Assembly (NCBI RefSeq): GCF_030867145.1
Contig: NC_134436.1
Location: forward strand, 6,510,001 to 6,574,000
DNA from: Opisthocomus hoazin
Lineage: Eukaryota; Chordata; Aves; Opisthocomiformes; Opisthocomidae
Direction: 5' to 3'
DNA: 64,000 nt
The translations under genes and the position numbers were made by a program. Below are positions 4,001-46,400 of the stretch, piece after piece (the first letter of the stretch is position 1; every line of letters begins with the position of its first letter). The notes under the pieces are model-generated. The model saw nothing but the letters and a program-made list of their open reading frames with translations, had not been told where the DNA came from and did no database searches.

Positions 4001-7000
4001 TAAAATACTTATGGGTAGAACTCAGCATGTCACTGATACTGACTGTTATAACAGTGCTAACGTTCACTGCAAAAATTAAACTCTAAGCTTTGATGTTTTT
4101 CTCTTTCAGTTACTCCAGACCAGCATGGAGTATGCATCATATGCATCCTATGGGTAAAAAATATGGCAAGAATTGGTTTTTTTTCAGTTTGATGTGCAGG
4201 CTGCTATGCGTTTCCCAGTATGCATACTCAAAGACTCTTCCGATGGTAAGCCTAGAAAACCCTGGCACTAAAAAACAATGAAATGAACAGTCTGTAAACT
4301 GAATGTAGCCATTTACAACACCCCTACAAATATAGCTGTCAGTGCATCTTCTGCTTTGTACCACTGCAGTGTCAGAATAGAAAGGTACTTCGTAAGCAAA
4401 ACAAACCATTGGGACTGGGAAGTCTATACTCCACATACTGTGAGTAAGAACACATTTTTATTGATCCCCTTTTGCAATCATAATAATTTAAGTAACATTT
4501 CATCTTAAAGATATTACTACCTCAAGATTGCACAGACAATGCAAAGGCACTGAAAACAAACCTCAGATTCATTAGTCACTGATGCAGTCTGTGAACATTA
4601 AAAAGAAAACTGACATAATTTTGTCTAGAAAAATAATAAAATGCATGCAAATACAACTTCAATTCATCTGCTCCTTATTTAGAGTCAGTCACATCTCAAG
4701 TTTATTAACAAAAAGTTTTTAAATTCAAATAATAGCAATTAAAATCAACTGTCTGTCCTTAGCTGCCTCATGAACTTGATAATAACTGATATGCACCACA
4801 TTAGAATTGACACTAAATTATAAATTTGGCTTTGAAATCAACAGTGAATTTCTGTATGTCTTGTATAAACATAACCTCTTTTGCTACCAATCCGCTCTGT
4901 AACTTTTATGCTCTTCACATTATCTTAGTGATTCCGTATCTGTTAGTTAAGTGTATTTTTCAGTGTATTATAGACACTGAAATATTTCTAAAACCAGCTT
5001 CCTATACTAAAGCTGGCATTATAAAGATACTTGTTACAATTTTCTTGTATTTCTGTCTGGAAATGTGTGCGATGTCACTCAGACAAACCTTTCAACATAT
5101 GACAGACTAAAAAAGTACCTGCAGAGCAGCCGAACTTGAAGAAAGCTAGAACTTGAAGAAAGCTGCCGCAGGATACAGGTTCTCACAAATGCATTCACTG
5201 TTTTGATGTGTAGTGCGGGTTTTCTATACGTAAGAAGATTCTTCCGAAAACATCCAATTCTTCTTTTAAATTTTATATGATTTCTTCATCAATATGCAAT
5301 CCCAACACTGATGTAAAACATCCTGTGTACATTAGCTTACACATTATTTAATTGCTCTATGTATTAAAAAAAATATACTGCCTGTCACCTGAGCACTGGT
5401 AGCTGACCACATGCACCATTTAAACTTCTCGCAAACGTGAGATAGAACATGCTAGTTAATACTAAAAACACTGTGAAAGAAATTTAAGCTAACATAGTTT
5501 AGTTTTTACAGCAGTACCTCAATCATATACCTCAACCTTGAGAATTACACCTTTAGCCAAAAAGATCCCTACCATTATCTACTGACCCACTGTGATGGCA
5601 TCTGTGTTTAAACTCTTTGCTTAAATGGCTGTGTCTAAATTTCAACAACTAATTCATTTGGTTTTCAGAAAAATTGAATAAACCAGCACTCCAAACAAGT
5701 CAAAGGACAGACATCAGGCAACATTTGAAAAATACACTGCTCTCAAAAGCAAAGAGCTGCTGGAGCTTAAGAGAAGTAGAATGGTCCCTCATGGTGCCAC
5801 TTCCACTGCTACAGCAGGCCTCGGTCAGCACAAAATGGAAAGTGCAAATTCTGGCTCTGATCTCAGTGCAGCCTACCTGGTCCCATGACACCTAGCTTAC
5901 AGCACATTGTTCTTCACCGCCTCCTGTCAAGGCTCTTGAGAGGCTGCAGCCTGAATTACCCCAGAATGTTACACAGAGGATAACGGAACTAATGAGGGAG
6001 AAAAACACCTTGGCCAGATTTGACCACTGAGAAGACACAGAATTTGTCTTTCTTCTTGGTTGCTCCTAGTCTAATAAATAATTCTTTAGCAAATACTGAG
6101 ATGGTAGGCCCAGCAAAACTGAGATACAATTAAATTAAGAAAAACATCAAAAAATAAATTTAGATAGTTCATCCTTTACGGCGAGATATAGACAGAGATG
6201 GCACAGAGAGACAGATTGAGAGAGCAAGAGAGACATGGAGGACGGAAGATCAGAAGTTTTGTCTTTGAACGTTTCTTGGTCACTTGAGCTTAACTGGGTG
6301 CCACGTAACCCATTTAAGTACAGAATTCACCAACTCAGAAGATATTAAGGACTCAAACTGGGACAATTATGATGTTAACAATGTAGGTGAAATTATAAAA
6401 AGCCTCACCTCCTTCAAAAGAGAGCACGCAAGCATCAGTATGTCCTTTAGAGAGGTGTCACGGAATGAGGTAGCTATTTTGCGATGTTTTGCCGAAGGTC
6501 TTGAATAATCAACCTAAGAAAAGTTAGGACATAATAAACAATGCTCCTAGATGATAGGTGTATCTGGCAGATTAATTATTTGACACTAGAAAGGAAAATT
6601 ATGTTCCAGCACTAAATATGTATCTTGACAGCTTCCTGAAGCACGTCCTTTTTTCCCTTTAAAGTTGTCTCTTTTTCTGGATGGAAAGGTCTGAGGTACT
6701 TCCTCAGGTTAAGGTGTAGGCAAGAGAAAATCATTAGCAGAAATACAATTGAAAAAGTTGATCATTCACTTTGCTTTACTAGTTCTAGTGACTATGACGA
6801 GAGAAACTTTACCCCGTATCGCATATGGTATACATCTGGCACAGGCAGAGTCCCTGCACTAACAATTTCTTGTCTCCATGTATTTTGGCAGGAGGAGGAA
6901 GGTATGTTAATCCCTTCATGTCTAAGAAATGTTTCTCCAGTCATTTTTATGCAGGGCAGAAACTTTCAACACACTGCTTTATCAGCAATACACACATCCC

Positions 7001-10000
7001 TTGCAGAAGGAAAAAACCCAAACATGCTTACTAGATTCATTTCCTGAGTCAGTTCTGAGAGAATCATTACTCCTATTATACAATGGTCCACAGTGCCCTA
7101 CGAAAAAAACAAAGAATTGCTCAAACATCACAGCTTGCATTCAGTATCTTCCAGCATTTCTAAAATCAGATGTTATTTAATATTTTCCAACATTTCTAGA
7201 CTGGAGGAATTTTTAGGCTGAGATATCCCAGGCTGTTTAGAAGGCTTTCATGCCAAATCCTATTAACATTACTAGAACTTCAAACTCCCTAATGAGCTCT
7301 GAAAAAAACCCTCATCATAAATTTTAAGAATTGTATGGTAACAAAAACCTGTCTGAAAACAGACTTTAGGTAACTGCAATCTAGAAATTCACTATTACTC
7401 ATTTCTCAAAGGTCTGTTCAGTATTCTAGAACTTGTAAGGCAAGCTGCATGAAATTCAAACCATTAAAAAAAATTAAGCTGTGCACTGATGAAAAAGATC
7501 ACAGAGCACTCTTGGAAAAGAAAAATAGTTTTGAAATGCTATCTATCAAAAAAAATCTAATTCTCTTCCCTCCACAGTAGCATACAATGCATTGATTTGA
7601 ACTGAATGATACATTCCATCTCTGAGAACTTGTGTCTAAAGATGAGGCAGTAGGTGTTAAGTATTTGCACCTGAGGGTGCAATCTGATCATCAGTATTTA
7701 AGTTCTTTGGAACATTTTGAAACTCATACAATGCAGAATTTGGCATTTAATTAATAAAACTTAGCTGTCTTCACTGAGCTACTACAAAGCATTTACAGAA
7801 AAATTAAATCTGCTTTGTTAAAACCAATTAAAATCAACTGCAATCAGGCCCTGCCATTGAGTTGGGGGCAGATCTCTGCATCTACTTTCACAGCTGCAGT
7901 TTGCAGCCTCAGCTCCCCTGGTGTCCAAAAAGCAAGGTCAGCCTTGTCAAAATTTTTTTTATATTTGTCACAACCACACTCATTTTCACAACTCTGAAGA
8001 ACACCCAAAGTTCAGCTAATGAAGAATCCAGCTGCCTACCAAGGGGCCTAACTTTTCACTGTCATCTAGTTTGTATTATGGCTTGCACCAGAGCAAATCA
8101 GAAGTGAAAATTTCAGAGAACTCTCAGGCAAAATTTCTACTGTTGCCCCATCCGCAGTCAGTAAGACTAAACATCCTATACTGTAATATCAACACAACTT
8201 TGTTTTATGTTTCAAGTTCTTAAAACAGTCTATAGGAATGCTCCTTCAATCACACAAACCTGCAAAAATGGAAAAAGCAACCTCCCTCTTCTCATAGGTG
8301 TGAAAAGCTGTGTGGTGAATTATAAGGGAGCTGGGAACAGAACTGCAGATCTAGCTGCTAACCCCTTTTTCTATATTTCTATATTAAATCACACTCAAAT
8401 TCATACTAGACAAACATCAATCTGGAATGCTACTGCATATGTATTTGAAACTACCATATGCTAATTATAATACATATTAGTATTGTTTAGGGATTATTTT
8501 TTCAATTTTTATCTAAAATTTAATTTACTAGTAGATCTATGGTTTAATTTTCTTTTCTACAGGAATTCTTAATTTAACTAAAGAAATCTCTTAAGAAGCT
8601 AAATTTTGTATTTAAATCTCTATTTTTAATGAGCTACACACTCAAGAGTCACACTGCAATCATTTTAATAATAAATGCAAAATCCAATTACAGTACATTC
8701 ATAAAAATAATTGCAAAATGGTGGAGAAGTATACTTGAGTTTGTTTTTAATAAACAGAATATTGCAACTTATCTTTTATTAGACATTCCCAATGTAACTC
8801 AAAAAGTACATTAACTTGAACAGTATTAGAAACATAGTAAGACTGAAAAACATATGAGAAACTCCCTGGCAAGAAACATAAACTGTTAGCTTCCTATTTT
8901 CTTGCTGAGTTGCCAGGATCACAAAGACATACACGCATAACGGATCATTTTGGAAGTAAATCTCAAAATAGCTGAAATTTTCAGATTTGTTTATCTCAAA
9001 ATAAGTACTAGGCTTTACATTCACATAGATGCTCAGAAAGACTAACCTATATTACCTTTCAGGGCAGATTAGCCACCTCCCAGAAAAAAATTTTAAGAAC
9101 CCTCATATACATGTTCAATGTATGAGATAACCAAGTCTGGCGAATAACCCATGACATCCAACCACCTTCTCCAAATTTACTTCCCAGAAGGTGCTGTATA
9201 TCCTGTATCTTTAGCCACCGCGTCTAAAGTACTTACTCTACATTTGGCATGTAAATTTGCATAGTGAACAGTCCATAGCGAATGACTGCACTCTGACATT
9301 AGGAGAAATTACTTCCAATTTTCAAATACTATGTACCAAGATCACCTCTCTATCCTGTAACTCACTTCTTTGTAACGGTGACCAATGCAGTGGGGGAACA
9401 GGAAATAAAGTGGAAAGAAATCTACAACAAGAACATTCCTGTGTCACCTAGTGTGAACTTTCCTCCCAGACTTCCCCATATTCCTACCTAGAATCCATAA
9501 GTTTTGTGGTACATTAGATTTCAACACATATGCTAATATAGGTAAAGTTATAAAAACACTCTAAACATATTATCTATCTCCCTATATCGTACACCATAAT
9601 CCTAGGAGAAACAGAATGTATTTTTTTTTTCTTTCACTCCTCTTTACATGTATAGAGAGAGAATGTACATATATGCAGGTATCTAAGTACCCATGCACAC
9701 AAATATGAATCACCAATTTCTCATAAAGTGAAAAAGGAATGGGGCAAACAAGGACTGTAACCACATAACAAATATATAGTGTCTTGCAATTTTGTGTACC
9801 ACTATTCTATCTTTACACAAGCTTTCCTCAGGAGCAGGGTTCTCTAGTGATTTCTGCTAAAAATTACAGTGCAGGTGAAGTCCCATTGCTTATACAGAAA
9901 AGCGATTCTGTGAAGACCGTAACAGCGAACGTTTCAACAAATAGCTTACACAGGCATCTTTTTGATCAACCCTCCATGACAGGCACTTGAAAAAATACAT

Positions 10001-13000
10001 TTGAATTAGATCTAGTGCCGAACAGTTCGGCACAACTTCCGCAGTCATTATTACAAGAATCACAATCAGACTCACGCTGTAGAACATGTGACAGTCGAAC
10101 TCTTCAGATGGCGCAGTACCAGCGTTTCTAACCAGGTAACTGGAGCTAGCACTATCAGAAATGTATCTCCACATCAGGTGAAAATAATTAAGACATTAAA
10201 TAGCATAGCTTGACAACAGGGGCTGATGTTTTATAACCACAGTACAAAAAAGTGCTTTGGGAAAAGAAAACCATCAAAAAAACACAACAGCGCTATGAAT
10301 ACTGTGAGGCATCAAAACCCACAAACTTGCACAAGTATCAAACCCGCCCTGGTTCTTCACTGTACAGCGACCTTCTGTTTTAAGCAATGCTCTTCACACT
10401 TTTTCCACCCACATGTATAACAACTACGTGACTTAACATGCCAAAAACCAAAAATGAAGAGGTCCAAACAGGAAAAAAATGGCAGAAGTAAACAACTGTT
10501 TCCTACCTGCAAAAATTTTTTTACATCAGCAATAATGTCTCTGAAGATGAGCTGATCTTTTAGTACCTCAAACCATCCTAATTTTGTAATTTTAGCAATG
10601 ACTTGAACAAGAGCTTGGATGACAAAAGGAGCCAGTTTGGGTTGAGATGCTACATAGTTCAGAATGTAATTTCCTGTAAAGAAGCATTTTAAAATCAGCA
10701 ACACAAGTCTTCTGTAAAGAGAATGAATTAAATGGTTGTAATAGAAAATTAAGGCATGGATTTTTTTTTAAAAAATATATTCTTATGATTAGTACAATAA
10801 CTGTAAGTTACATTACATCATTCAATACAGCTAAACATTTAGTAACACAATGCACATTATATACGTGATCATTATTCTAGGACACATACGACAGTGGTTA
10901 GTGAATTCAGAGAACACTGGCAGGTAAAACAAAGCAATTTTTCATTACAGTCCTGTATAGTGGGCACTGATTATTTCACTGTGTAACAGTAGCTGTCACA
11001 GCCAACTCAAGATACACAAGTGTTTTTCAGACAAGCATCCCTACCGAATGTTCTCAATTCAGTCTAGAACATCCCTTCGGGTAATGCACATTGCAGCTGC
11101 AGAAATTCCTCTCTAACTAGAAGGAAGTTAATCTGTTCCAAAAGCTGTTGAAATGTATAAAGTCTATTAAAGTTTTTTTTTACCTAAAAGAACATTGAAA
11201 TCTTCTTATCAGAAGAGGTGGGGATTCTCAGCCATACATTTCAGAGTACTACTATCCACAGAACTGACAAAATAGTGCAGATTTTCTAAAAAAACAAATT
11301 GAATCATACGCTCCTCGTGCGAAGTCTTTCACTATTAAAGACCTAACCTTAGGATATAGCAATGACTTTAACACAGATCCTAAAGAGTAAGGAAAATTTT
11401 GTAGGATCGCAATACTGCAAGTAAGAACCTGCCCTGGCAAGACTTTTACACGTGTTCATAGCTGATCAGGAGCAACGTTACATGTAAGCAACTGGTGGGT
11501 GTATGAGCGTATCTTCAACTTTCGTCCTTTACAAACATGAACTAAATCTCTTTAGCATCTTGTGGATAAACACAAAGTCTGTCTTGAAAAATGAGTATTC
11601 TTCTTTAAATATGAAGTAATCTGAGCTCACATATTTATTTACTTAAATTTTGAAACTAAGAAATGTTATTTGTGAGCTAATTGCACAGAAATGACGGAAG
11701 AACTCACAACCACCTTTATGTTCAGTCTCTCACAATGACTACCTTCTGCAGAACAGGCTCGGTAAATTGACAGAACTAGAGAAAAAACAGACTATCTGCT
11801 GAACAGTTACTGTGCTAACATGAAGTTTCAGACCCAACTAATACAATGAAATTTTAACCACAAACGTTACTTACGAATGTCAATCCTTTGCTCAATAGGT
11901 AATGGAGATGCCCTGCTTACAAGCTTAGACAGGCACGTTGCTGCTAGAAGCTGAGCATAGGACGTCTACAAAAACACATCAAAAGATATTATTCAAAATT
12001 AGGCTAATTAAAGGCAGTGATAATAAGTCAAAACCTGACAAATTATCAATAAACCAGACTGGTTATCAGGTTTTGGTTATGTTTGTTAAGTGTACCAAAG
12101 ATGTGTTTTAGTAATATCTTTGTTTTATTGTAAATACACATAAATTACAAAACACTAATAAAATAGTGCAGACCTAAAAATATCATCCCTTCTAACAGAA
12201 ACCATTCACCTAGAAGTAATTTCACTATTCAGTGGAGTTCTTTGGTTTTGAAATCTTTTTTTAAATCACTTGATAATTTAGAGCCATGAGATGATTACCA
12301 CGGGTCTAGTCCTGAATTAAAGATATTTTCAAGTGTGTTTCCTCTTTTTCTTTCTCAATCTTTCTGAATGATTTGAAAAACACAGAAAGAGTTGTACTGG
12401 ACTCAGCTTGGACTGTCAAACCAGAATCAACTCCGCTATCATTTTATCTAAAGTTAACCATGAAATTAACACCAAAAAAGAAACCTAGTAATGATAACAG
12501 AATGCTTTAAACTAACTCAGTTTAAGGATTTTTTTTTAGTCCAATTTTTTTTCATTGTAGCTAATAGTAGAAACAAGAACAAGGCGATGTTCTAACATCA
12601 GGTTATACCACACTGAGTCCCAGCACTGCTCTACAGATGACACAACCCCTGCTCACAACCCTTCTGAAAGCTAAAATGCTTTCCCTTTTTGTCCCTGACA
12701 TCTCTAATGCAAGGTACTGTCACTTCTACCAAGACCACCTCCAAATGAAAAAAAATTTAGAATCATTTAAGACACAGAATTACGTACAGATAAAGGAAAA
12801 AGCATTTTGCCTTTATTGTACTGACATGGGACTGACCCACGACTAAGAAATCTACGCGAGCTTCCATGAGCATGATTACATTTATGGATAACACATCTTT
12901 CAGATATTTACCGTTCCTTGTTCTAATAGAAGCTGGCATTGGCTGAGACATTCTGGGCTATCAATAAGCTCCAAGAGTACCTTCTCAGCTTGCACTCGCT

Positions 13001-16000
13001 GTGCTAGATCAGTTCCTTCGTATAGGTGGTTGCATAGTACTTCTAGTTCTGCCAGACTCTGTTAGGAAAGAACACAATTGAAACTTCCATGAAGACTTTT
13101 CAACCATTTGCAACCGTAAGATTTCTGTAAGAGATTATAAACCTAAATATCATATCAATAACATGAACTGTTAACTATCTTAAGCCTTCCAGTTCATTTA
13201 CATTCAAATTACAAGAAAACAGGAGGCTGTGACAAGCAGCCAAAAATAACTCTGAAAATTAAGTTGCCATTTCTTATTCTCTCAGCTACTGAAGTGTTTT
13301 TTTAATACGGTTTAACCCATCTGTTTTTCTGAGTCTTCAGATGGGAGGTCCATCGCTTTTCCAGAGAGAGATGAAAAGACAAAGAACAGTGAACAGTTCA
13401 AGCTATGCTACTTGGAAAACTTCCAGCAAATTTCACTTTAAAAGCTGTAATTACTCATCAAATTACCACACCTGGAAAAAAATAGCATTGCCTGTAACTG
13501 TTGATGCAAATATCAGTGAAAGATGGGACAACTCAGAAGCTATAGTAGCAACAGAAGAGATGAAAGTCTTCTCCACTCAGAAGCTGAAACAGCTCTCTTT
13601 GGTACAGAAGGTGGTGGTGATGGGGGAATCTCTTTCTCCTATGTGAGGGATACAATTTATATCTACTAGTCCCTGACTCACAGGAGAGATGAACCCTTTG
13701 AGCACGTTTCGAAAACATTACACAAACAGAAGTTTTAGATCCACTAGGTTCCCACAGCCCATGGAACTCTCATCAAGAACCAGCCACGTCACCAGAAGGT
13801 ACCCAGTGAATATTTCATAACTTGACTGTGGCCTAGAAAGAAGAGCAAAAGAGAACACGCAATATTTGACCGGTCTTATTTAAAAGTTTGAGTCAAAATC
13901 CGGTTCGTGAGCCCTTCCTAAAAGACGGTTTGTACTTGAAAGAAAAGATTTGGTTTAGCACAATCTAGCATCACTTTTACTGTAGGCTCAAATGCCTTTT
14001 AAAAATCTACGACAGTAATAGTGCCTTTGGCAACCAAAGTACTTCTTGGTTTTTGTCAATCAAAGCATGTCATTTCCTAAAGACACACTTCTTATCATAA
14101 AAAAAAAGCCACACCAAACCATGGTCTTTTTCCCAATTTTGTTCTTGTGCATACGGAGTTCCTGGCTTCGATCTGCTTCTTGTGAATTTCAGTCATAATG
14201 ACATTTTAAGGGTCTCTGATTTTCAGTTGAAAAGTAGCCATGTACTTGTTCCTTTGGAGAAATTTTAAGAAATAGCACATCTGCTTCTGGAATGAACAGA
14301 TCAAACATCTCAAAGACTGAGCTCAACAGAGACATCTGTTGTTTTTGATTCCCCTCCCCACTCATGTTCAGAGAGAGTGGAGGGAAGATAACGAACAGGT
14401 AACAATCCCAGTAATGTATTTTTAAACAAAGCAAGATCCACGCCAATTAAAGTGAAAATTAACTCATAAAATGCAAGCGTACACTTTCGGGAAAATACAA
14501 TACAACACAAAACCCACATAACTGGGGTAAACCATGGGAATAAGGACATCTAGCCTAGAGTCTTCAGATATAAATTACAACACATCTTTCCATAATGGAA
14601 TCATTCCTTTATAATCTGAGAAGCATGAACCAGCTTATCATGTCATAACGAGCAAAAGTTAAAGACCTTCAATCAAATAATGATTTGATCCAAAATCTGA
14701 CTTTCAAGTCTGGACAAACTTGGCAACAAGTTTGATAAAGTCCAGAATAAAACTGGGATATCAGCCCAATCACCAAGGTCTAAATCATCTGTATGCTAAC
14801 TGGCATTAAAATAGCAAACCTCTGAAGGAGAACGAGGGAAACCCACCATAAATCTGTTAAGCAAGCCTGAATACAAACAAGATAATGATTTCAAAAGAAA
14901 GCTGGTTTATCGGATATTGAGATCGATGACTTTCAGCACTTTGAAATGCTTTATCTGGACAGGTTTTGTCTCAGGACAAGGTTGTAACAAAGTTTCTCAT
15001 TGGTAGGCTTGAAGTATGGCCAAGAATTGCTCAGAATTCTCAGACTGACAAAGAACTTGTTAGATGTTCTCTGGGTTGTATTTTATGTATAGCATGGAGG
15101 AAACACGCTGATTCTCCTTAATTCAAACAGTGAAATCAAAAAATAACCTGAATTCAGCAAATACAACCATCTTGCGTATGATGGTAACTCAGCTGAGTAA
15201 CAGAGGTATTATTCAACTTAATCAAGAAAAAAAATACTTGGAGAAGCCAACAAGAAGTCAAAAACTAGCACTTTCTATATTAGAGACATTTTTTCTTCAA
15301 GAAAACAGAAGAACGTCACAATCCCATTTTTACTGTGAGACAAACCACGTAAAAGTGATGCCTTCAGATACTTCACTGAAACCCTTATCAACAGCTGAAC
15401 GGCGATTCCTGCCAAAACACCAACCGCAGCAGTGAACAGGACCTAGCAGTCAGACGCTGGCTGCTTTAAGTGAGCCAGGAGCAGAGCAGATCTCTAGCAA
15501 GAGCGGCAATTTCGATCACAAAGCAGTGTTTTTCCAAGAAATTGATTCGCACCCCAATGAAAAACGTCAGATACAGTGGGGGTTTTTTTTCCCCTGCTTG
15601 TCGCACTTCCGTGATATTCCAGAACAAGCTAACCAAAATTCTCCAGGTCCTTCTGGAGCCCCCTCTGCAGCTCTCGAGGTCCCTGGCAGCTCTCCTGGCA
15701 GCCCGTGGCAGAGCCGAGGGCCAGAAGCGGCGGGGGCCCGGCCCCGCAGCACCCCCGGGCAGGCAGCCAGGGCGCCCAGCGAGCTGGCACGCAACCAGGT
15801 GGGTTCCCGAACAAAGTTGTGCTGACACGGACAAATTCCCACAGACACTGTGATTGTAACCAGCGTTCTTCTGACTGAAAACGTTCTACTGAGAAAGTTC
15901 CACCGGCTCCAGGCGGCGGAGCAACAGGATGGGTATGGCTGCAGTTTAGAGAAAGGAAAAAAAAAAAAAAAAGGAAAAAAAGCCATGAGGTGATAACAAA

Positions 16001-16731: not shown

Positions 16732-17020
16732 CTTCCCGAGCGGCGCCGGGAGCGGGCCGCCGGGAGGGAACGGGGACAGGGGGCAGTGCCGAGCCGCGCC
16801 GGGGCCGGCGGGCAGCGAGGGGCGGGGCGGGCCGGGGCCGGGGGCGGCCGCTGGGGCGGGGCGGAACCAGCCCCGCCCGGACCGAGGCTGGGGGCCGGCG
16901 GGGCGGGGGCGCCATTTTGTGCTTGAGGGCCGCAGGGAGGGCAGCCGTGGTGCGGCTGGGGCTGCGCGCGGCCTGTGCTTCGCCTCATGGTGCCCGCAGC
17001 GCGGCGGCGGCTCTGTCCTG
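15640..17020. promoter_or_regulatory. RANBP17: CpG island and RANBP17 promoter
   Basis: A CpG-dense, GC-rich block of about 1.4 kb surrounds RANBP17 exon 1, in an otherwise AT-rich window. Upstream of the start (to the right) are GC boxes at 16819-16830 and 16853-16864. GCGCCATCTT (16725-16734) covers the start codon, and the similar GCGCCATTTT lies at 16911-16918 with its GC at 16909-16910; on the minus strand both read like YY1 sites. No TATA box is obvious. This is the pattern of a housekeeping promoter with scattered starts. Long ORFs in both strands here are composition artefacts. Confidence 0.8.
16714..16731 (-). CDS. RANBP17: RANBP17 coding exon 1 (6 codons)
   Basis: It encodes MALRLQ. 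The ATG at 16731 has a strong Kozak context (A at -3, G at +4) and lies in a CpG island. The exon ends in CAG before a GT donor, phase 0, and the next exon begins SLAELE, as in the mammalian protein. Confidence 0.93.
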
Positions 17021-22104: not shown

Positions 22105-22110
22105 TTTATT
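22105..22110 (-). terminator. Candidate poly(A) signal of the KAZALD-like gene
   Basis: AATAAA on the minus strand, 214 bp beyond the stop codon, within an AT-rich stretch. The cleavage site was not determined. Confidence 0.45.
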
Positions 22111-22323: not shown

Positions 22324-22451
22324 TCAATTTTCATAGTCCCCGGATTCATATTCTTCCTCATCTTCATCATCAGAATGGTCATAATAGTCCCCATATTCAA
22401 TGCTGTAGCTTGCACTTCTACTGCCAGCAGTAAATGCAAATGCAGATGAGC
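22324..22451 (-). CDS. KAZALD-like exon 4: acidic C-terminal tail and stop
   Basis: 128 nt completing Gly255 and encoding 256-296, then TGA at 22326-22324. The tail is rich in Asp, Glu and Tyr (YGDYYDHSDD, then EEEYESGDYEN). KAZALD1 likewise ends in an acidic Asp-Tyr tail. The context suits tyrosine sulfation, which is inference. Confidence 0.9.
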
Positions 22452-25400
22452 CTACAAGACATAATTGAATCCGGATTAAATTAGTTGTAAAAGGGGAATG
22501 AAAGGAAAGGGTAGTTTTGGATCTGTATGGCAAACAGCCTTTCTGAATCCTTGTTAAGTCGTCTACTAGAAGGAGAGGTTTTTTTCCAATGACTTGACCT
22601 CATACCATCAAAGCTCATGGTATGTGAGCAAATTTCTATATCCTTCACATTTTAAGATGTTGAAAGTACATTTAATTCTGAATACTAGTGAACTATGAGT
22701 TCAGTCCTCTGCAGACCCTATGCACCTGAAAATATGACCAGAGTCAATAAAGGTTTGAAAACCACTTGCTGAAACAAGGTCAGTGACAAACCAGACCAGT
22801 GACAAACTCCCCGAGACCGGGAGGCAAGTATACGACAAGGCATCTTTATCCTGCATTTACCAGGAAACCCAGTTTTCTCTGTCGGAAGAAGGATGTTATT
22901 CTGCAGGACTGGGCCCAATGCACGACAACAGTAAAGCTATTTCTTAGCTCAATCCAAACACTCTCATTAAGGAGCAACAACGGTTTCCTTCCTAACTTTT
23001 TGAAAAATAAACAGCTAAGTAGAACTGCCATGGTTCAAAGACTCCCTCAGCTACAGCAGCTGTTGTTCCGGGTGCAGAGCTCCTACTAACATCAACATAA
23101 TAGCAAAATATTACAATATTAACATGTAGGTATTTTTTTTGCCAGAAATCATAAGCACCGACTTTTGAATAGCTAGGACTAAATCTCCAAATAGGGGATA
23201 AAGTAAAAGAAAAGCACACAGGAAAGTTAAAATATGAACATCTTTTGGTAATCTCTCATACTCTTCATTTGTGTTCTGACAAACCCACCCTTTGCAGCCT
23301 GCTTGTATACATTTTTATATTCTTCACATCCAAATAAAAAAAATAAATACCATCAATGACTTTCAATCTTGCGGAGGCGTATGTTGCACCATACTTATTT
23401 TTGGTGTGGCAGATGTAAACACCTTCATCTGATTTTTTGAGGCCTTGAATCTGCAGCCAGCCTGTCACACCATACTTCTGAGGCCCACCTCTTGCCTTTG
23501 AGAAGAGAAAGAAATAGTTGAAATTAAGTAGCTAGGAGACATCATGATATTTGTCAAAACAGTTGTGGCTGGATTAAACAGTGTTCTAGTCTTTGCGTTT
23601 TCTTTATTGCCATCATGCTTTGATTCTCTTGGATTCTGCCTATGGCCTCCACATTCATGCTTTCCCTGCTCTGCTCTTTATAACTCACTGCCCTTCACAG
23701 TGCTCTGATTCCTGGTCCTTATGATGCTTCTGCTTCCCAGCACATCTCCTGTCTCTTCTCCCAGCACCACTTCTTGCTGCAGCTTCAAAGCGTTGCCACC
23801 TCTTCTCAAGCTCGTAAGTTTCTTCAGGATGAGAGTGGCAGGTGGGGCTGGGTGAGCTGTCAGAGCCAGGGGCCTGGCCAAGCTGGCCCTCCTCCAGGTT
23901 TTGATGGGCTGGCATGACATATCGTGAGCTTTCACACTTCTGTGACAGTCAGTTTCACCTTACTCAGGCTAAAGCCTCTTCAAGGGTTGAGCTTTCTATT
24001 TCCAAACAAATAACACAAACACAAAACCATAAACAAATGTTAATAGAGATGCTGTCGTGCTGGCTCAATTAATGAGATAAGTTAACAGGGTTCAGTTTAG
24101 CCTCTGAGGTGACCAGCATTTGGATGTGGCTGCTCGCACCATTTTTTCTGAACAATTTTAAAATCCACTAATGCCACTTGTGTTTATGCTGTCTCTGGAA
24201 ACACTTCTAAATAACTTGGACTTTAGTACCTCAGTACTTTTGGTACTTTAATTAGCTTTTTCTGTGCTTTTTCTATCTATCTTTTTGTTCAGGTTATGCC
24301 CCATGTCCATTGGATCGTCTCATTTGTCCATTGGATCTTCTCATTTTTGGGTTGTGTATCCAGAAAGCTAGATTCTCCATGCATTTCTCTGCATAGTCTC
24401 CACTAATGTTCCTTATCCATTGGAGAAGGCATGCGAATGCAGGTGTCAGCCTTGCTGCAGTCTGCCTGTACAGCTGGCTTTGTGAGCGCATCTCCCGAGA
24501 ATGTTATTGTCATTTAAAAGAATTAGCATTTTGATTTATTTAATTTCAGCTCAGTCTTTCAGGCTGTTTCTAGATTTGCTTGAAGCCTGTACTAATGCCA
24601 TTCTACGCTTTCCCCTGAGATTAAAACACAGTGTCCTCCACAAAATGAGCAAGTTTCTTTGCTTTGCTTTTGAATGCCTCAAGGACTGAACCCAAACGGC
24701 AGGTATCCAGAAACGGCGTCTTGCAAGGGAGAAGTTTAGATACATAGTTATAGAGCCCCTATTGGGAATCTATTTATTGCAACAGTATTGTATCCTGTAG
24801 GAGGAATTCACAGATTAATCACCCTACTCCTCATCCCAAACCGTATCACGTGGAAAACTCAAGTTTTACCTGTACTGAGATGTGGGCATCATCTCCTGGC
24901 AGAAACATTTTATTCCCTTTTTTTTTCCATTCAAGGTGTGGCATAGGGTAGGCTGACACCTCACAGCCAAAAATGACGTCATTGCCTGTGAAATTCTGGA
25001 CGTCCTGAGGTGGCACAGAAATAACAGGAGCTGCAAAGAACCGACAGAACGGTGCTTTAGAAGACAGTGAGCAAAATACAACACAAACACAGAAGCAGGT
25101 AACGTTAATTCCTATTTTACATGATAAAACCAGTTTGCCTTTGCCGTCTTACACATTATGAAGAGCCGCATGGTTCCAAGCAGCTTTTAAAGGTCAGAAC
25201 GCTCTGCGTCTCATTAAAGGGTGAACAGGCTTTTTAAAAACACTTATGTCAAAGGACCCATTGCTCCTTCCTCTTGCACGTGATCATGAAACAAGCTGAA
25301 ATTAAAAGTTTAATTTGTGTCCCATGAGCTATCAGTGTGGACTAGACTCAAGGCCCATCGTTCTAGCAGCCAGCACTCAGCTACACCTTCAGAGGAGAGT

Positions 25401-28400
25401 AGGAGAAATTCCATAGCAGACAATCACAGAGTAACTTGATTGCATGTGATAGTTCTTAATTTCTGTTACATTTTGCTTAGCTTAAAAGCTAAAACAGTTA
25501 GATTGCTAGCTTGTAGAAATTGGTTTTCTGAGTACATCATTGCCTTGAACTTGCTCAAATCTCATCCCCTTCGGTTACCCATGGAACTCATGGCAGCAAG
25601 TACAGAGTAACAGCATTAATGTGTTTCGCATTTATTCTCAAATGCTATCAATTTTGTCTGATGTTCTTCTTATCAGACAACTAATAAACGTGGTTGAAAT
25701 CTAGTTATAAGGTTTTATGTTATGTTTATTATAATTATTAGACTTCCACTTACTTGTTTCCTACAGTTCTCTAACCCTCATTGCCCTCCACTTTTCATTT
25801 ATTGCTTCTGAATTATCCTCTCCCACTTTTTCCCAAAGAAAAAGCTGACCTTAACCACGAGAGGGAGCCAGTCCAGGGATTCGAAGACATTAAAAAAATA
25901 AACTATCACCTGATGCATTCGTACATGATTTAAACACATATCCCTCTGTAAGCATGTAAGAACATACTAAATGTTAACAGGAGATAATGATATTTAGCAG
26001 CAGAAAGCAAAATAAAATATTTACTGTTATCACAGCTTTCTTATTTTGGAGATCTCTGCTTTTTTCCTGATCTATTTGTCCTCAGCAAGAAATGTTTTGC
26101 CTTCCAAAGTCTGTTTTCTTTCTTTCTATTTCCATACTAATGTTTAAAAATGAATGCATTTTCTGGGCCGTTAGACTTGTACTTAATTATTGCCTTTATT
26201 TTTTAACAGATCCCAGATGCTTGGAAATAGAAACTTACAGTAAATAATTAATATATTTTTACTTGCAATATTTGAATCAATATGTAGGTACAGCATTTAT
26301 GCTTCAACGTTTGACATTGTAACAGCCTGTTCCCAGGTTGTCAAGCAAAGTTTCTAATACATTTCTCAGTTTTTCAGGATTGATGTCTGTGCAGAAAATA
26401 TCAAATGCATACTGATTAAAATTAATCGCAAACAAATTATATAGCAAAGTATCAATTTCTCCATTTATGAATACCTCATTAGTACTTTTCTTTTGTGAGA
26501 ACTGTACATTCAGACTCTGTATATTATTTCAAAAATCTTGTATTCAAATCAGCATTAACTCAGTATTTTAGATGAGATTTTTTTTGCCTCTGAGCTTATC
26601 GCATAGGGTCCAATATTAAAACATACTTTGAAATATTGAAACTCAGTGCAACCACACTCCTATTAATGATACATCCACTGTCATTAAGCTTAAAGTGTAA
26701 AAAAGAAACCAAATGTCTATGTTTACTCAAATGAGTTCTTTAAGTCTTTCCTGCACAGAGTCAACATGAAAATCTTTTTAAGTAGGCAGACGTTGACTGG
26801 TTAGTAGTTTTGTTCTGGTGCTAACACAGGTGTCCTGCGGATACACAGACAACACTGAAGTATTGCCAAGAACTGAGTCCTGCTTACGTGGCTGTCCACA
26901 GCCGGCGCTCAGCCGTGCGATGCTGAGGGCTCCGGCTTCACCGCGCCGTGTAAACACATCCGCAGCTTCCAGGACATGAGGGTCTGAGTCACAAATCTGC
27001 ATTATAGCTGTTCGCCTATGGGAAACTTGTCTAGCACTGTCTACCATACACCAAGACAAATTCCACACTGGAAATACCCCTTTCTCCATTAGCCGTAAGG
27101 AGAATCCAGATGATAGCTTAAATGGAAATGGCTATAGTCCAAGTCCCACCAGAGATAGTTAAGGCTTTGCTGGACCAGGGCTGACCTGGCATCATGTGAG
27201 ATCAAACTCATAGCAAGTAGGAAGAACCACAGTTTCGATCTAACCAAACTGCCTTTTCTGAATCTGAAGACACAATAAATACTTGCATTATCTATTCAGA
27301 CTTTAAGTGCTTCCAGAAATAAAACAATACGTGTCTCACAACACCATTTTGCTGTATTCTACAGAAGAAAATTGAAGTAATACTGTCTCGTTTTAACAGA
27401 AATTTACAAACTTCAGTTTTGAATGTTTCATATTTTGTGTTCAGCCAAATTCTCCCATGCATATCTGTGTGTACTTTTTTTCCATAACTGTGTCTTTAGA
27501 AACAGATCTTCACTGTTATGATAACCTGTCATTTTGATTTCTGAAGTAGATAATTTTCTTTTTTAATAGCTCTAGAAAGCATTCTGATGTTGCAGTGTCT
27601 GGAGATGAATGTGCAATAGTTGCTCTTTTCCTTTTAAAGTCTTAGTCATGAATTATCCTCATGTGTTACAGGAGACATAAAACAGAAGCCAGGAAAAGTC
27701 AAAATACTGCTTCACCTTTTACAATCAACATTAACCCAGTATCACTCCAGACTGATGAATTAGCAATTGGATATCTTTTTGCCCCTTAACTCATTAATTT
27801 TTGATAATCTATGTCTGATTTGATGAAAATTGCAGAAAATTTCGTGGCTTGCTTATTTGTTTTTTACTCCAAAATTTACATTTAAAATCAATTATGTGAC
27901 AGCTAAATGCAGAGAATCACTGCTAGCTTGTTCTGTTACTTTGTTAAATCATCAGCAAGAGAGGCTTGAATGTGAATGGGGATGGATTAAGTGTGGAGAA
28001 TCTGTATATAACCAACGTACTTAGTAACCTTGGTAAATTATTACATAAACTGATCAAAACTAGCTTTCAGGAAAAGAAGGGCTTTTTCAGTGTTTCTTTA
28101 GGGAGCTAGGCCTTTTTCTTCCCCTGTCTCTGGTGATAGACGGAAGATAAAAGGCTGTACTCTTCTGATGAAAAGAGTTCATTGTTATTTATTTATTCAT
28201 TGGTTGCTGTATACAATTAATCCATTTGGCATCAATAGGAAACAGCAGATGCTTTGAAGGAGAAACAACAAAACAAAGTACTTGGAGTTGAGTGAAGGTT
28301 GTATTTATAGCTTGGTACCAAAACCCCACAGTGCTCAGTGTTTGTTTCTCATGCAAATTGCCGTCAGCAGAAAGCGAGTGCTGCAGCGAGGTTGCTACTC

Positions 28401-30834
28401 TTAGAGCCAGACTCCCTGTTGCCTTTTGTCATCAGCTGCATCCAGGAAAAACCAGTCTCAGTCCCAGAGCACTTTCACATGCCCACTGTGCTGCTTCAGA
28501 TAGCTGCCGTGGCAGAGAGGGGCTGACTGGTGGGCTCTTACGGGGACCCATGGCAGCACCTCTGGGCCCTACTGCTTGCTGAGAGGCCCGGGCTCCTTCC
28601 CGGCTCTGGAGTACAATCTGCAGACCCAGCGTGGTCATGGCTATGAAGTTTCCTCCAGGCTTCTGTGCAATTCAGTAAGCTGAGCCATCCTAGGCAATTC
28701 CTCTGCATTCCTGGCGAGAGGGTCCAGGCTTTCTGGAGACCCGAGGAAGCAGGGGGAAAGTGGTGGGGGGTGATGCCTGCATGCAGAGCAGCTGAGCTCA
28801 TTCCTCCTGCTTGATCAGCAGTGTTATGTGCCTCAGGAGTGACTGCAAGGCCTGGTGGATGACAGCACTAGCAATTAAAAGCGGTAGTATTTCCAAATTA
28901 AAGGTTTTTGTACGTGGCCAGTTGTGTTTAATTAATTAGAGCAGACCATTGCTTTAAGCCTGTATGCCTGAGCAGCTACCTCTGCTGCGACGTTAAGATC
29001 AGTTGCTGCTTGAGTGGCACTTCTAACTGAAATCTGCCTGAAGGGGTTATGCCGCAAGAACTAGTGCTATTTTAATCCCAAATAAGAACACCTACCCCAG
29101 GGCTAAAAGGCTTTCAGTCACACTGTGGACTGGTATGTACTGACTTCTCTGAATGTCTTTTACTGACAAGCCTCATTTCCCAGCTTAATACCCTAATGGC
29201 AAATAAGGGACTCTTTAATGGACATTTCTCTTGCAACTGGAGAAAGAGGAAAGAAGTCTGGTGTTAGCTATTCGTCACTTTTCCTTTTAAGTATTCAATA
29301 TCCAGTGTTCATTCAATATAAAAGCACAGCATAGAGTCTAAGTTGGAGGCAACAGATTGCTAGCAAGGAGTGGGTAAAATGTACCTCAGTTACTCTCGCA
29401 TGCGGACCTTTACCAGAGATGCAATTTTTGGATTCCCAGAACTGTGACCCTTTTGTCACCCAGAGACCTCTTCCACTTTGTTCATTTGAGAAAATATTTC
29501 ATTAACTTTAAAGAAGATAATAATTTCTCCTTCAGAAAACAAAAATCTGTTCATTGCTTCCTTTTCATTTTATATTCATGTGACTTAGGTGAAAGGTGCC
29601 CGGGAGTAAAGTCTTGTAATAATGTGAAGAATGAGAACAGCATATGAGCAGGAGGCAGGATTCCCCCGTACAACCCGGCTAAGAATCCTTCCACTGACAA
29701 TCATTGCAGAGAACTGTTCACGCACTGTAGTGTTTTTAGGGAAATTATTTCAGTTGGATTTTGTTCTAATTCTGGATTGCCATTTCATGGGTTACCTGGA
29801 TTTTATGATGATTCTGAAATTTGGTTATTTTGGACTTTTTTTGCAAAAAGAGCAGACCTGTTGATTAAGCCTTATTGCCTCTGCTTCACTGATTACTATA
29901 TATACACAGAGGTGGATACACACATTCATATACACATATATACATACATATAATGCGTGTATATATAGGAATGAGATCTGCCTCGCTATCACCACTGTAA
30001 TATCAAGTCAGTCCTCATAATAATTTTTTGTCCAGTCCTCCCAGACTATTGTATCTGTTTATCTACTGCCAACTACACATACAATCTTTGTAGAAAATAT
30101 CTCATACTCTGCTTATTCAGAGCAGATCTAGTCTATACATCTATGGCTTACTAGTCACCATGTGATTTACATCCACTAGTCTCATATAGAGGCTTATAAC
30201 ATACAAGATTAAGTACCACCTGCTGAACCACATGTTTAACACAAAGTAGTATTACGACAAAATAATGATAACAAAAATGCAGTATTAGTTCAATGACGTT
30301 AAACTAGAACATGTAGTAACATATCTAAAAATAAGTCAGATCTTTTTTCAATTTGAAAGTGCCTCTGTACATATTACCTGATTCACATGGTCCTTTATGT
30401 TTCATGCTGATATTCTTTTTCATAGCATAAACCTTGTTGAATTGACAGATGTTCTCGTAGGTTTTCCCTTCAGGTCCGCAGATGCTCTCTTGAGACTTGC
30501 ACACACACTGTGGTTCAGGGACTTCCCCAAACCTTGCTTCATCAGCATCCAGCCTGCACTCAAGGTTATCCCCACATTGCCCGTAAAAATGATTGCCCTG
30601 GTCCAAGTCGCAGATCTGACCTTCCGCATTTCCACACTCAGGACAGCAGCCGCAGCGGTCCAATACGGTCCCAGCTGGACAGTCTTTAGGCTCAGAACAA
30701 AGTGCCACATCGCATTTTCCACAACTATCTGCTTCCCTTAACAGCCTCCACCAACTTTGGTGGTACAAGGCAGGGAAACTCTGAGAAACCTGCACCAGTA
30801 CTACCAGCACTGCTGTAACCATCGGGTGCTTCAT
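22324..30834 (-). CDS. KAZALD1-like secreted protein (IGFBP N-domain, Kazal, Ig), complete CDS
   Basis: Exons 30834-30378, 25030-24870, 23495-23351 and 22451-22324 join to 891 nt, 296 codons plus stop, all phases agreeing; human KAZALD1 is about 304 residues. Order: signal peptide (about 1-20, MKHPMVTAVLVVLVQVSQSF); Cys-rich IGFBP-type domain (about 38-110) with CGCCPEC; Kazal/follistatin-like domain (about 110-150) with CGPEGKTYENIC; C2-type Ig domain (about 153-254) with NDVIFGCEVSAYP and GWLQIQGLKKSDEGVYIC; acidic, tyrosine-rich tail (255-296). Potential N-glycosylation sites are NIS (Kazal) and NFT (Ig). Domain order and the PGDDAHISVQ/TGWLQIQ motifs match KAZALD1, an extracellular matrix protein implicated in bone and regeneration biology. 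Its location by TLX3-side genes rather than by TLX1 argues for a paralogue (KAZALD2/3 type), so no symbol is given. The ATG has A at -3. Confidence 0.88.
23351..23495 (-). CDS. KAZALD-like exon 3: second half of Ig domain
   Basis: 145 nt, residues 207-254 plus one base of Gly255. It encodes ARGGPQKYGVTGWLQIQGLK and the Ig signature DEGVYICHTKNKYG with the second Ig cysteine. The acceptor is tcaaag and the donor gtattt. Confidence 0.93.
23496..24869. other. KAZALD-like intron 2
   Basis: A 1.4-kb intron with a 21-bp direct tandem duplication at 24305-24346; nothing else recognised. Confidence 0.75.
24305..24346. repeat. 21-bp tandem duplication
   Basis: Two adjacent copies (24305-24325, 24326-24346) of a unit beginning gtccattggatc, differing by one base (g/t at the 13th position). 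Confidence 0.85.
24870..25030 (-). CDS. KAZALD-like exon 2: first half of Ig domain
   Basis: 161 nt completing Ala153 and encoding residues 154-206: PVISVPPQDVQNFTGNDVIF, then GCEVSAYP, LEWKKKG and PGDDAHISVQ. It carries the first Ig cysteine and the canonical tryptophan. The acceptor is tttgcag and the donor gtaaaa; it leaves in phase 0. Confidence 0.93.
25031..30377. other. KAZALD-like intron 1
   Basis: A 5.3-kb intron between the Kazal and Ig exons. It contains a TA/CA/TACA simple repeat at about 29895-29967. No other exon or repeat family was recognised. Confidence 0.75.
29895..29967. repeat. TA/CA/TACA microsatellite
   Basis: Interrupted simple repeat of TATA, CACA and TACA units, similar in composition to the one at 430-473. 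Confidence 0.75.
30378..30834 (-). CDS. KAZALD-like exon 1: signal peptide, IGFBP and Kazal domains
   Basis: 457 nt, residues 1-152 plus one base of Ala153. It holds the signal peptide, the twelve-cysteine IGFBP-type module with CGCCPEC, and the Kazal module ending KHKGPCES. The donor is gtaata, phase 1. Upstream of the ATG is a pyrimidine-rich tract ending in ag directly before it, so an additional non-coding 5' exon is possible. Confidence 0.93.
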
Positions 30835-43127: not shown

Positions 43128-43442
43128 CTAAAAATATAGGTAATAAGCCCAATAAAACACATTAACCAGCATGAAAAACAAAGGGAAAAGCAATTTGGAG
43201 TAGTGGTCTACATTGCTGGGGTTCTGAATTGTGAAATAACCAATAATCCTGTGCATTTTGTTTCTCAAGACACGTTTGATTTTCTCATGAGTTTTCATAG
43301 TCAAGTCACTGCAGTTAACATTATCGGTGGAAATCTCAATGCTTGTAAAGCTGATTTTCCGTTTATAGTTGGTGATGGAGCTGTTGAGGATGTCAGCGAT
43401 GTTGACTTCTTCCATTTCTTTAGTGAGCTCATTTGCAGGCCC
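43128..43442 (-). CDS. GABRP: GABRP coding exon 9 (M3-M4 loop, M4, stop)
   Basis: 315 nt, residues 342-445 and TAG at 43130-43128. It begins [18 protein letters not shown] and includes [17 protein letters not shown] and [21 protein letters not shown]4 ends FYWAYYLYF. The short loop is typical of pi. Phase 0 in. Confidence 0.95.
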
Positions 43443-46400
43443 CTAGGAAACGAGAGTACAGTTAGTTTTAGGGTTTGTCTTTGCCTGCAGGGGAAAAATG
43501 CTTTAATCAATAAGGGGACCATAAGGATAAAGATAAAAGAACCCAGCTGCACATGCGTTCATCCTGATATTCAAACATGCCTTTGAGCTGCTGCCTGTTG
43601 TTAGGAGTGTCTGAAGTCCCAGAGATGCCTGTGTTTCCGCCACTGTGTTCCTAGAAGTGTTTTGAGATCTTTGAGAAAGTCTCACTTTATGTCACCGGGC
43701 AACCCAACATCCATCTCCTACAAGACAGCCATCTCTTCACATCTCCACAATAACTTAACGGCTGGGGAACTTGGCAGCAAGGTAGGAAATCTCTTTTCCC
43801 TCTGACAGGATTTGGACCATTGATGACAACTGGACTATAATCATACTTGACTATTTGTTTTCTCCTACTAAAGCAGAGCACTTTGAACAAATCACTCTCT
43901 CTCGCACTCCCCCCTCCCCAAATGTTTTGGGACCGATGATGCTGTGTTCTGGAAAGGTGGGAAGAAGGGTTCAGCTCTCCTCTGGTCGAGGAAATTACCT
44001 TCCAGACCAGTGTCCTAATCAGAGTTATTCCATAGAAGAGCGAAGAGGTGTGTTAAACTGGCTCTTCTTTGGCTGCGCTTTGAGGGGAGCAGAGGTGCTT
44101 CCTGCTCTCGCATGAGCTCAGCTCAGGGCTACAGACCCAGTTGTAGTGGTGGGCGAAAGTGCCTTCCTGAACGTGGTCCCATGAATCTAACGTGACTGTC
44201 AGCTACGGTGGCTGCTCTTTTGGTTGCTGTATAGAACTCTGTCAGAAACACAGCAGCCTCGTGCTGTTCATGCATTTGTTGCACAAAAAAATTTAGATTT
44301 AGTGACAATTAGGAGAAGCAATTGTTACTGTATCCATAACAGGAAGACAATTTGTCTTAGTTAATGGAGGACTAATCATTGTCGATTCAAGATAACTATG
44401 CTTACTAAGGTAGGTCCGGCTTTACCTCTTGAGGTGCTTTAGCTGCACACTTTTGTGATGAGCTGTAGTGAGCCACTGCATATTCCACAAGGGCACCAAA
44501 GATGAAGCTGAAGCAGATGCCGAGGTAAACATCAATGGCCTTAATGAAACAGTTGGTTTTTGAAAGTGAACTTCGTGAGCCGATCATTAGAGTTGTCATG
44601 GAAAGCACCGTCGTTACTCCTTGGAAAGCAGAAAAGGAGAGATCTTCACTTGTGGACACTTTGTAAAAGGCTTGGCCTATCCTTCTACACACGTTGTCAC
44701 TCTCTATTGCTAGCCAGACAGAGCACATCTCTTTTTTCCTAAATCCAAATCATCCATCAACTGAAATGCTTTTGTAGCAGTAGCTACTAACTTCACACAG
44801 GCTCTCCCTGCCTTTAACAACTTGGCTCCAATAGGCACTTGGGTCTTTTAATTTTTCTTGTTTTCAGTAAAAAAATCCCCCCTTCCCCTCCCTGCCCTCT
44901 CCAAAGCATGCTACAAAGAACGTGTGGTCTGTCTTCTGTGCTGTGTATCTGCCTGGAGCCTTGGCTGTAGGCAGCTCTGCAGGTGGGAAAGTGTGCAAGC
45001 CACAGTGTATCTTCCACGCTTCACACTGCTGAGCCAGCTCTGCCACAAGTAGCAGCAGAACAGGAGCAGACTGCTTACCACTGAGCGGAGAGCTCAAGAA
45101 AACTACTGTCTACCCAGCCCTCAGAGGCTCCCCTGCCTGCTTAAATCTTCTCCTTTCCTCAGGCAATAACTCACCAATGCAGGTTCTTGCGGGCACCGAA
45201 TCCAACGTGATCCAAAAAGAAACCCAGGACAGCATGACAAGCAGCGTGGAGGGCACATAGGTCTCCAAAATGAAGTAAAGGACATTTCTTCTCAGCTCAA
45301 ACTGCAATATCAGTCGTGGGTAACTGCCTGTTCATGAAAGGAAGAAACACAGTGAGCATGAGATTCCCAGAGACGCTTGAACTGAAACTGGGACAGCTCA
45401 GCACCAGCCCTTCAGCTGAGGCAGATCAGCAGAGCTGCACTGAGGCCGTGGGAGATGCATTACTTACACAAGCTGGGCTTCTTGTGTCGGAGGTCTTACT
45501 TAGCTAACATGTCCGAGACAAGATGACACATACACACAGCCTGGCTGGACAACAGACATCTAAAGCAACGCGTGGCTTGCAGGGGGGCTCCTGAACTTAA
45601 TCCACAGTGGAAACATTTTATACCAGTGTCTTAACCCAGAGCAGAGAAGGGCTGGTGCTCTCACCTATCCTCTCACACTTGGCACAGCACGTATTTCCTA
45701 ATAACCGCTTTGAAAGGACATTGCCAAGTTCAGTTGTATCTGATGGTTGAGAAATAAACAAAAGATTTTTCTCTTGATTTCAGCAGGCTCTAGCTCACGT
45801 CTCAAAGCATCCAAATAGCTTAGCATCACAGGAAATTAGACCCCCTGTATTAATTAATAGTTGGTGATCCTTGATAACTGTCTTTTTGTGCTCAAAAAAA
45901 TTCAGTCAGTGTTTTACGATCAGTTTGTCGTAATACTGACATAAGGGTTCTGGGGCTGGAATACGAGTATTTTCAGGAGACATTTCTGCTGTTTAAACAA
46001 TAGTTCCCTTTGAAATGTAGAAACAAACCCCATGTTGTTTGTGGGCTGTGTACACTACAGTAAACAACAAAGCATTGTTATTTTTAAAACCTGGTCATTG
46101 TAAGGAAGTTTTACCCCCTTTCATAATGCCTCTGATCAGAGAGAAGAGTATTTACAGTGATAATGAAAAAGACGTTGAATTCTGAGGTACAAAGGGATCT
46201 TATTCCACCATGATAGAATTGTAATTTACAAACAAAAGTATATTTTAAAGTTAATTTTACTCCCAGTTACTGTAAACATGGCTCTCTGCAGTATTTATAG
46301 TCTGCACACCTGTGAGGAAGGGAAAGAGTTTCTTTGCATGTGGATGTGGAAAAGTGGAGATTAAAAAAAAAAAAAAAAATTGAAAATCCATGAAGTGACT

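Follow-up and report, generated by a model that had tools for sequence, protein, structure and literature searches.

Results

The window analysed here is a stretch of 64,000 nucleotides of Opisthocomus hoazin (NCBI RefSeq assembly GCF_030867145.1, contig NC_134436.1, positions 6,510,001 to 6,574,000 of the forward strand; contig C23 in the genome searches below). It carries a gene of four exons on the minus strand, spanning positions 22324-30834, the same coordinates as those given by the initial annotation. Exon 1 (30378..30834) encodes residues 1-152, with a signal-like N-terminus, an IGFBP domain and a Kazal-like domain, and is delimited by its open frame and a GT donor. Exon 2 (24870..25030), placed by its splice sites and by the I-set match at residues 154-252, encodes the first half of an Ig (I-set) domain, and exon 3 (23351..23495) encodes the second half. 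Exon 4 (22324..22451) contributes an acidic, tyrosine-rich tail and the stop codon, and about 210 bases past the stop lies an AATAAA candidate poly(A) signal on the same strand (22105..22110). The first three exons end in phases 1, 0 and 1, all three introns are GT-AG, and the joined exons give 296 open codons followed by a stop, with no internal stop or frameshift. Within intron 2 (24304-24346) a 21-base unit occurs twice in tandem with 95% matches.

The gene lies between GABRP and RANBP17, as the initial annotation had placed it, and all three genes share the same strand. Exons of GABRP, the GABA-A receptor pi subunit, were found upstream at 43131..50620 by motif and by eye in the translations, the Cys-loop exon among them, while further 5' exons were not located. 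The joined pieces matched the GABA-A pi subunit best in PDB (2.3e-149), with the next subunit at 3.4e-86. The 5' exons of RANBP17 were found downstream at 1267..13055 by tblastn with a sequence of the N-terminal part of the protein, the best exon match showing 92.5% identity; two flanking pieces (L035 and L038) gave no match to this N-terminal bait. Upstream of the first matched RANBP17 exon, at a distance of about 2.4 kb, positions 15500-17100 reach a G+C content of 0.82 with many CpG, which is likely a CpG-island promoter. TLX3 on human chromosome 5 has RANBP17, GABRP and KCNIP1 linked to it on one side, and the same grouping is described on chicken chromosome 13 (PMC2446394).

Pfam analysis of the protein identified IGFBP at residues 38-93 (E 1.2e-6), Kazal_1 at 110-150 (E 1.3e-5) and I-set at 154-252 (E 1.4e-13), all with scores above the curated cut-offs. 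The N-terminus contains a hydrophobic 11-mer starting at residue 6 with a mean Kyte-Doolittle value of 2.76, resembling a signal peptide, and the final 26 residues hold 13 acidic residues and five tyrosines with no lysine or arginine. The gene model, the Pfam matches and these residue counts confirm the complete 296-codon gene with IGFBP, Kazal and Ig modules and an acidic tyrosine-rich tail that had been annotated initially; the gene is real and intact, an observation far beyond chance. Classical IGFBP1-6 have a C-terminal thyroglobulin type 1 domain, and this domain was absent among the seven Pfam families listed for the window protein, so that the protein does not belong with classical IGFBP1-6. 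The four-exon structure, the order IGFBP-Kazal-Ig and the intact frame are all features by which vertebrate Kazald genes are recognized (PMC12955574), as is greater similarity to a Kazald gene than to IGFBP7, which the window gene also shows.

The nearest solved structure for the whole protein is IGFBP7 (IGFBP-rP1; PDB 9zhh, 3.1e-41), which shows the same order of IGFBP, Kazal-like and Ig domains and, in the aligned stretch, also lacks a cysteine at the same Kazal position. These likenesses could be taken to mean that the window gene is IGFBP7 and no Kazald gene at all. However, this genome has its own IGFBP7 gene at C5:64.33-64.34 Mb, whose exon 1 matches IGFBP7 at 3.3e-47, and the Ig part of that gene lies in three matched pieces rather than the two of the window gene. 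Exon 1 of the window gene is 53% identical to that of a second Kazald gene on contig C6, described below, versus 41% to that of the C5 IGFBP7, and the 9zhh alignment stops at window residue 256, before the acidic tail. The separate C5 gene, its three-piece Ig part and the lower identity rule out IGFBP7, and we regard this reading as extremely improbable. The N-terminal region of HTRA1 (PDB 3tjq) likewise has the IGFBP and Kazal-like tandem. After the tandem, however, HTRA1 continues into a protease, whereas the window gene continues into an Ig domain.

The whole 1.48 Gb assembly (415 contigs) was searched with the window protein. There were 54 matches at E <= 1, most of them Ig domains of other genes as judged by query position. 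With all 122 candidates scored, only two loci match the IGFBP-Kazal exon together with each of the two Ig exons at no less than 50% identity, namely the window gene and a locus at C6:65.233-65.237 Mb. The C6 gene (C6:65232851-65236660) also has four exons with phases 1/0/1, and its protein shares 149 of 281 aligned residues with the window protein (53.0% identity). The identities and the tree that involve human KAZALD1 hold provided that the human sequence used is broadly correct. Against this sequence the C6 protein is 71.4% identical (210/294 aligned) and the window protein 47.9% (136/284 aligned); by module, the window protein shares 13/37 residues with KAZALD1 in the N-terminal part, 35/56 in IGFBP, 18/41 in Kazal, 61/99 in Ig and 9/29 in the tail. 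The human sequence used has all five residues named in PMC12486400 (R40, R41, R45, E51 and E60) at their expected places.

A tree of four sequences with one internal branch was built from the window protein, the C6 copy, human KAZALD1 and IGFBP7 as outgroup. The best tree pairs the C6 copy with human KAZALD1 (bootstrap 81%, 200 replicates). The arrangement with the window protein and human KAZALD1 as sisters is rejected (AU p = 0.0057), while the window protein and the C6 copy as sisters are not rejected in this four-sequence tree (AU p = 0.228). These results bear on the reading that the window gene is the KAZALD1 orthologue itself, relocated. The two genes are indeed alike in their domains, four exons, intron phases and a short acidic tyrosine-bearing end, and about half of their residues are identical, but the C6 copy is clearly nearer to the human KAZALD1 sequence used and the AU test speaks against the alternative pairing. 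On these two grounds KAZALD1 orthology of the window gene is rejected as far as these sequences can tell, and a relocated KAZALD1 is hardly credible; the window protein did not fall inside the KAZALD1 orthologues, the outcome that the initial annotation had named as fatal to its proposal. The date of the duplication is taken from block position and the published tree. KAZALD1 in this genome (IGFBP-rP10, Bono1) would then be the C6 gene, which lies on another contig, next to a TLX homeobox, and differs from the window protein in having 6 acidic residues and 3 tyrosines versus 13 and 5 in the last 26 residues, and three N-glycosylation motifs versus two.

Both Kazald genes share their contig region with TLX, NPM and FGF genes. 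A TLX homeodomain bait gave three strong matches in the genome, at C6:65.192 Mb (94%), C23:6.355 Mb (92%) and C5:0.611 Mb (87%), with the next match at 56%; the window gene and the C23 homeobox are 177 kb apart, the C6 Kazald gene and the C6 homeobox 41 kb. The Nucleoplasmin family has four loci, at C23:6.311, C6:64.766, C28:7.35 and C28:8.70 Mb. On C23 the match is to nucleophosmin (NPM1), at 8.3e-38, while the C6 pieces have nucleophosmin as their best solved structure but only weakly (3.8e-17), and this weaker match points to a family member other than NPM1 on C6. Such a weak match would be expected of NPM3, which the C6 gene presumably is. FGF matches lie at C23:6.216-6.236 Mb and C6:64.782-64.788 Mb, so spaced that FGF and NPM are about 75 kb apart on C23, 16 kb on C6 and 6.5 kb at the first C28 NPM; the genome FGF search found no FGF near the second C28 NPM (8.70 Mb). 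TLX, NPM1 and FGF thus stand 0.18-0.32 Mb from the window gene on its own contig. We take the names TLX3 and FGF18 on C23, and TLX1, NPM3 and FGF8 on C6, from position, from PMC2446394 and from the known human arrangement rather than from gene trees. The presence of these neighbours upholds the paralogon inference, and together with the AU test it bears out the proposal that the gene is the 5q35-side (TLX3/NPM1/FGF18) paralogue and not KAZALD1.

In Table 1 of PMC2446394 the other three Lbx/Tlx loci are occupied by Kazald1, Kazald3 and Kazald2, so that the TLX3 locus remains for a fourth Kazald. The window gene lies in exactly this paralogon (TLX3-NPM1-FGF18, with TLX3 and FGF18 named by position and PMC2446394), which is the one unused by Kazald1, 2 and 3. 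Among the Kazald matches at E <= 1 in the genome search, which scored first-look candidates, none lay on C28 or close to C5:0.6 Mb, a result compatible with the absence of Kazald3 and Kazald2 from this genome.

Two further observations were made on the FGF matches. At C28:7344356-7351786 FGF and Nucleoplasmin matches stand about 6.5 kb apart, as for the FGF17-NPM2 pair. FGF17 has reportedly been lost in Galliformes and Passeriformes, going by the title of a 2015 paper, and the published survey of PMC2446394 likewise did not find Fgf17 in chicken; a bird with such a pair may therefore stand outside both orders. Contigs C40 and C41 share similar pairs of FGF matches as well as 3264 bases that are 98.96% identical between L020 (C40:2.14 Mb) and L022 (C41:89.2 Mb); this likeness could reflect sex-chromosome partners or an assembly duplicate.

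Discussion

The identity of this gene is already settled in print, and the finding is in that sense a known one. Keeley et al. (iScience, 10 Feb 2026; PMC12955574) named a fourth Kazald clade Kazald4, assigned it to syntenic block C, identified chicken LOC769726 as KAZALD4, and traced the Kazald family to the 2R early vertebrate genome duplications by a four-clade tree and synteny. Among the papers searched, theirs alone uses the name 'kazald4'. The chicken gene and the window gene are alike in the order IGFBP-Kazal-Ig, in having four exons, in lying in a paralogon distinct from that of Kazald1 and in their occurrence in birds; no difference between them has been demonstrated from the published account, and the window gene is a further species copy. 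The words GABRP, RANBP17, TLX3 and Fgf18 are absent from the main text of PMC12955574, where 'Fgf8/17/18/24' and 'Tlx1/2/3' are present. By elimination through Table 1 of PMC2446394, block C would be the TLX3/FGF18 block. Membership of the window gene in the Kazald4 clade therefore rests on synteny, on this elimination and on PMC12955574. The gene is best explained as KAZALD4, one of four Kazald genes to arise from two early vertebrate genome duplications, kept intact between GABRP and RANBP17, and the published phylogeny and synteny support the early origin that had been proposed from the window.

It might instead be argued that the window gene is a younger duplicate of KAZALD1 that arose in the reptile-bird line and is no 2R ohnolog, since the four-sequence tree retains the window protein and the C6 copy as sisters. 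However, the two copies are just 53.0% identical, both lie within TLX-NPM-FGF blocks, and the best tree joins C6 to human. In addition, Kazald4 is reported from cartilaginous fish, several ray-finned fish, salamanders, lizards, birds and non-placental mammals, with a single Kazald gene in placental mammals and snakes (PMC12955574). A younger duplicate is accordingly very unlikely, if a little less so than the two readings dismissed above. The same published distribution corrects the initial annotation in one respect. Retention in this lineage with loss in mammals is too broad a statement, because Kazald4 also persists outside birds in the groups just named; the loss stands for placentals, which have a single Kazald gene, and fails for non-placental mammals, which keep Kazald4. 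Nor is the role of the gene unexplored, as had been supposed, since Kazald4 has been named and its expression in bird brain published, and LOC769726 appears in a 2024 transcriptome table (PMC11282827); the naming paper dates from February 2026 and may have been too recent for the initial annotation to take into account.

What kind of protein the gene encodes may be suggested by its modules. KAZALD4 is predicted to be a secreted, disulfide-rich extracellular protein, with a growth factor, a receptor or a matrix partner as the expected ligand of its IGFBP-type and Ig modules. In the Kazal-like domain one cysteine of the third ovomucoid domain is without a partner, presumably the fifth by the usual count, and the six-cysteine fold of a functional Kazal protease inhibitor is therefore incomplete. 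On this sequence evidence, the missing canonical cysteine, the reading as an active Kazal inhibitor was rejected, and for the same reason the domain would probably serve as a structural spacer. Acidic surroundings free of basic residues are the usual context of tyrosine sulfation, and each of the five tail tyrosines has at least three acidic and no basic residues within five places, versus three such tyrosines in KAZALD1. The acidic tail, possibly tyrosine-sulfated, may provide another binding site, charge-driven and suited to basic ligands. KAZALD1 is reported to bind TGFBR1 on the basis of docking and immunoprecipitation (PMC12486400). Of the five human KAZALD1 residues docked to TGFBR1 in that paper, docking being weak evidence, R45 alone is unchanged in the window protein; E51 is conservatively replaced by D, and the remaining three differ. 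The C6 copy has four of the five. Taken as a sequence-based view, the window protein would be secreted, would bind its ligand through an altered interface and would not inhibit proteases.

Published expression points to the brain as the main use of KAZALD4 in birds. Kazald4 is reported to be highly expressed in chicken, emu and zebra finch brain, though not in alligator brain, and Keeley et al. propose that it acts in cell proliferation in the brain of birds (PMC12955574). LOC769726 occurs in two of the papers searched, the second being PMC11282827, whose main text mentions it once: Table 2 lists it in the 'extracellular region' row among the genes with higher expression in the chick subcommissural organ than in whole brain at HH30. 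This listing does not seem to be mentioned in the text of Keeley et al. (PMC12955574). A literature search for 'kazald1' with 'subcommissural' found no paper, and 'kazald1' with 'zebra finch' found only the Keeley paper. We speculate, quite tentatively and thinking it improbable on balance, that bird Kazald4 is a secreted brain protein released in part from the subcommissural organ toward the cerebrospinal fluid, that its acidic, probably tyrosine-sulfated tail and changed N-terminal interface would give it a ligand unlike that of KAZALD1, and that this would be a bird-specific neural use of an ohnolog lost by placentals.

In summary, we hold with high confidence that the best explanation as a whole is a KAZALD4 2R ohnolog, predicted to encode a secreted binding protein with a non-inhibitory Kazal-like spacer and, going by published expression, used mainly in the brain in birds. 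The gene exemplifies hidden paralogy: this copy from a whole-genome duplication is missing in placental mammals and bears a mere LOC number in chicken. To what is in print this study makes two small additions, the missing canonical Kazal cysteine and the five tail tyrosines in acidic surroundings. The differences in the tail and the interface would offer concrete parts to test in relation to the strong brain expression of this gene in birds.
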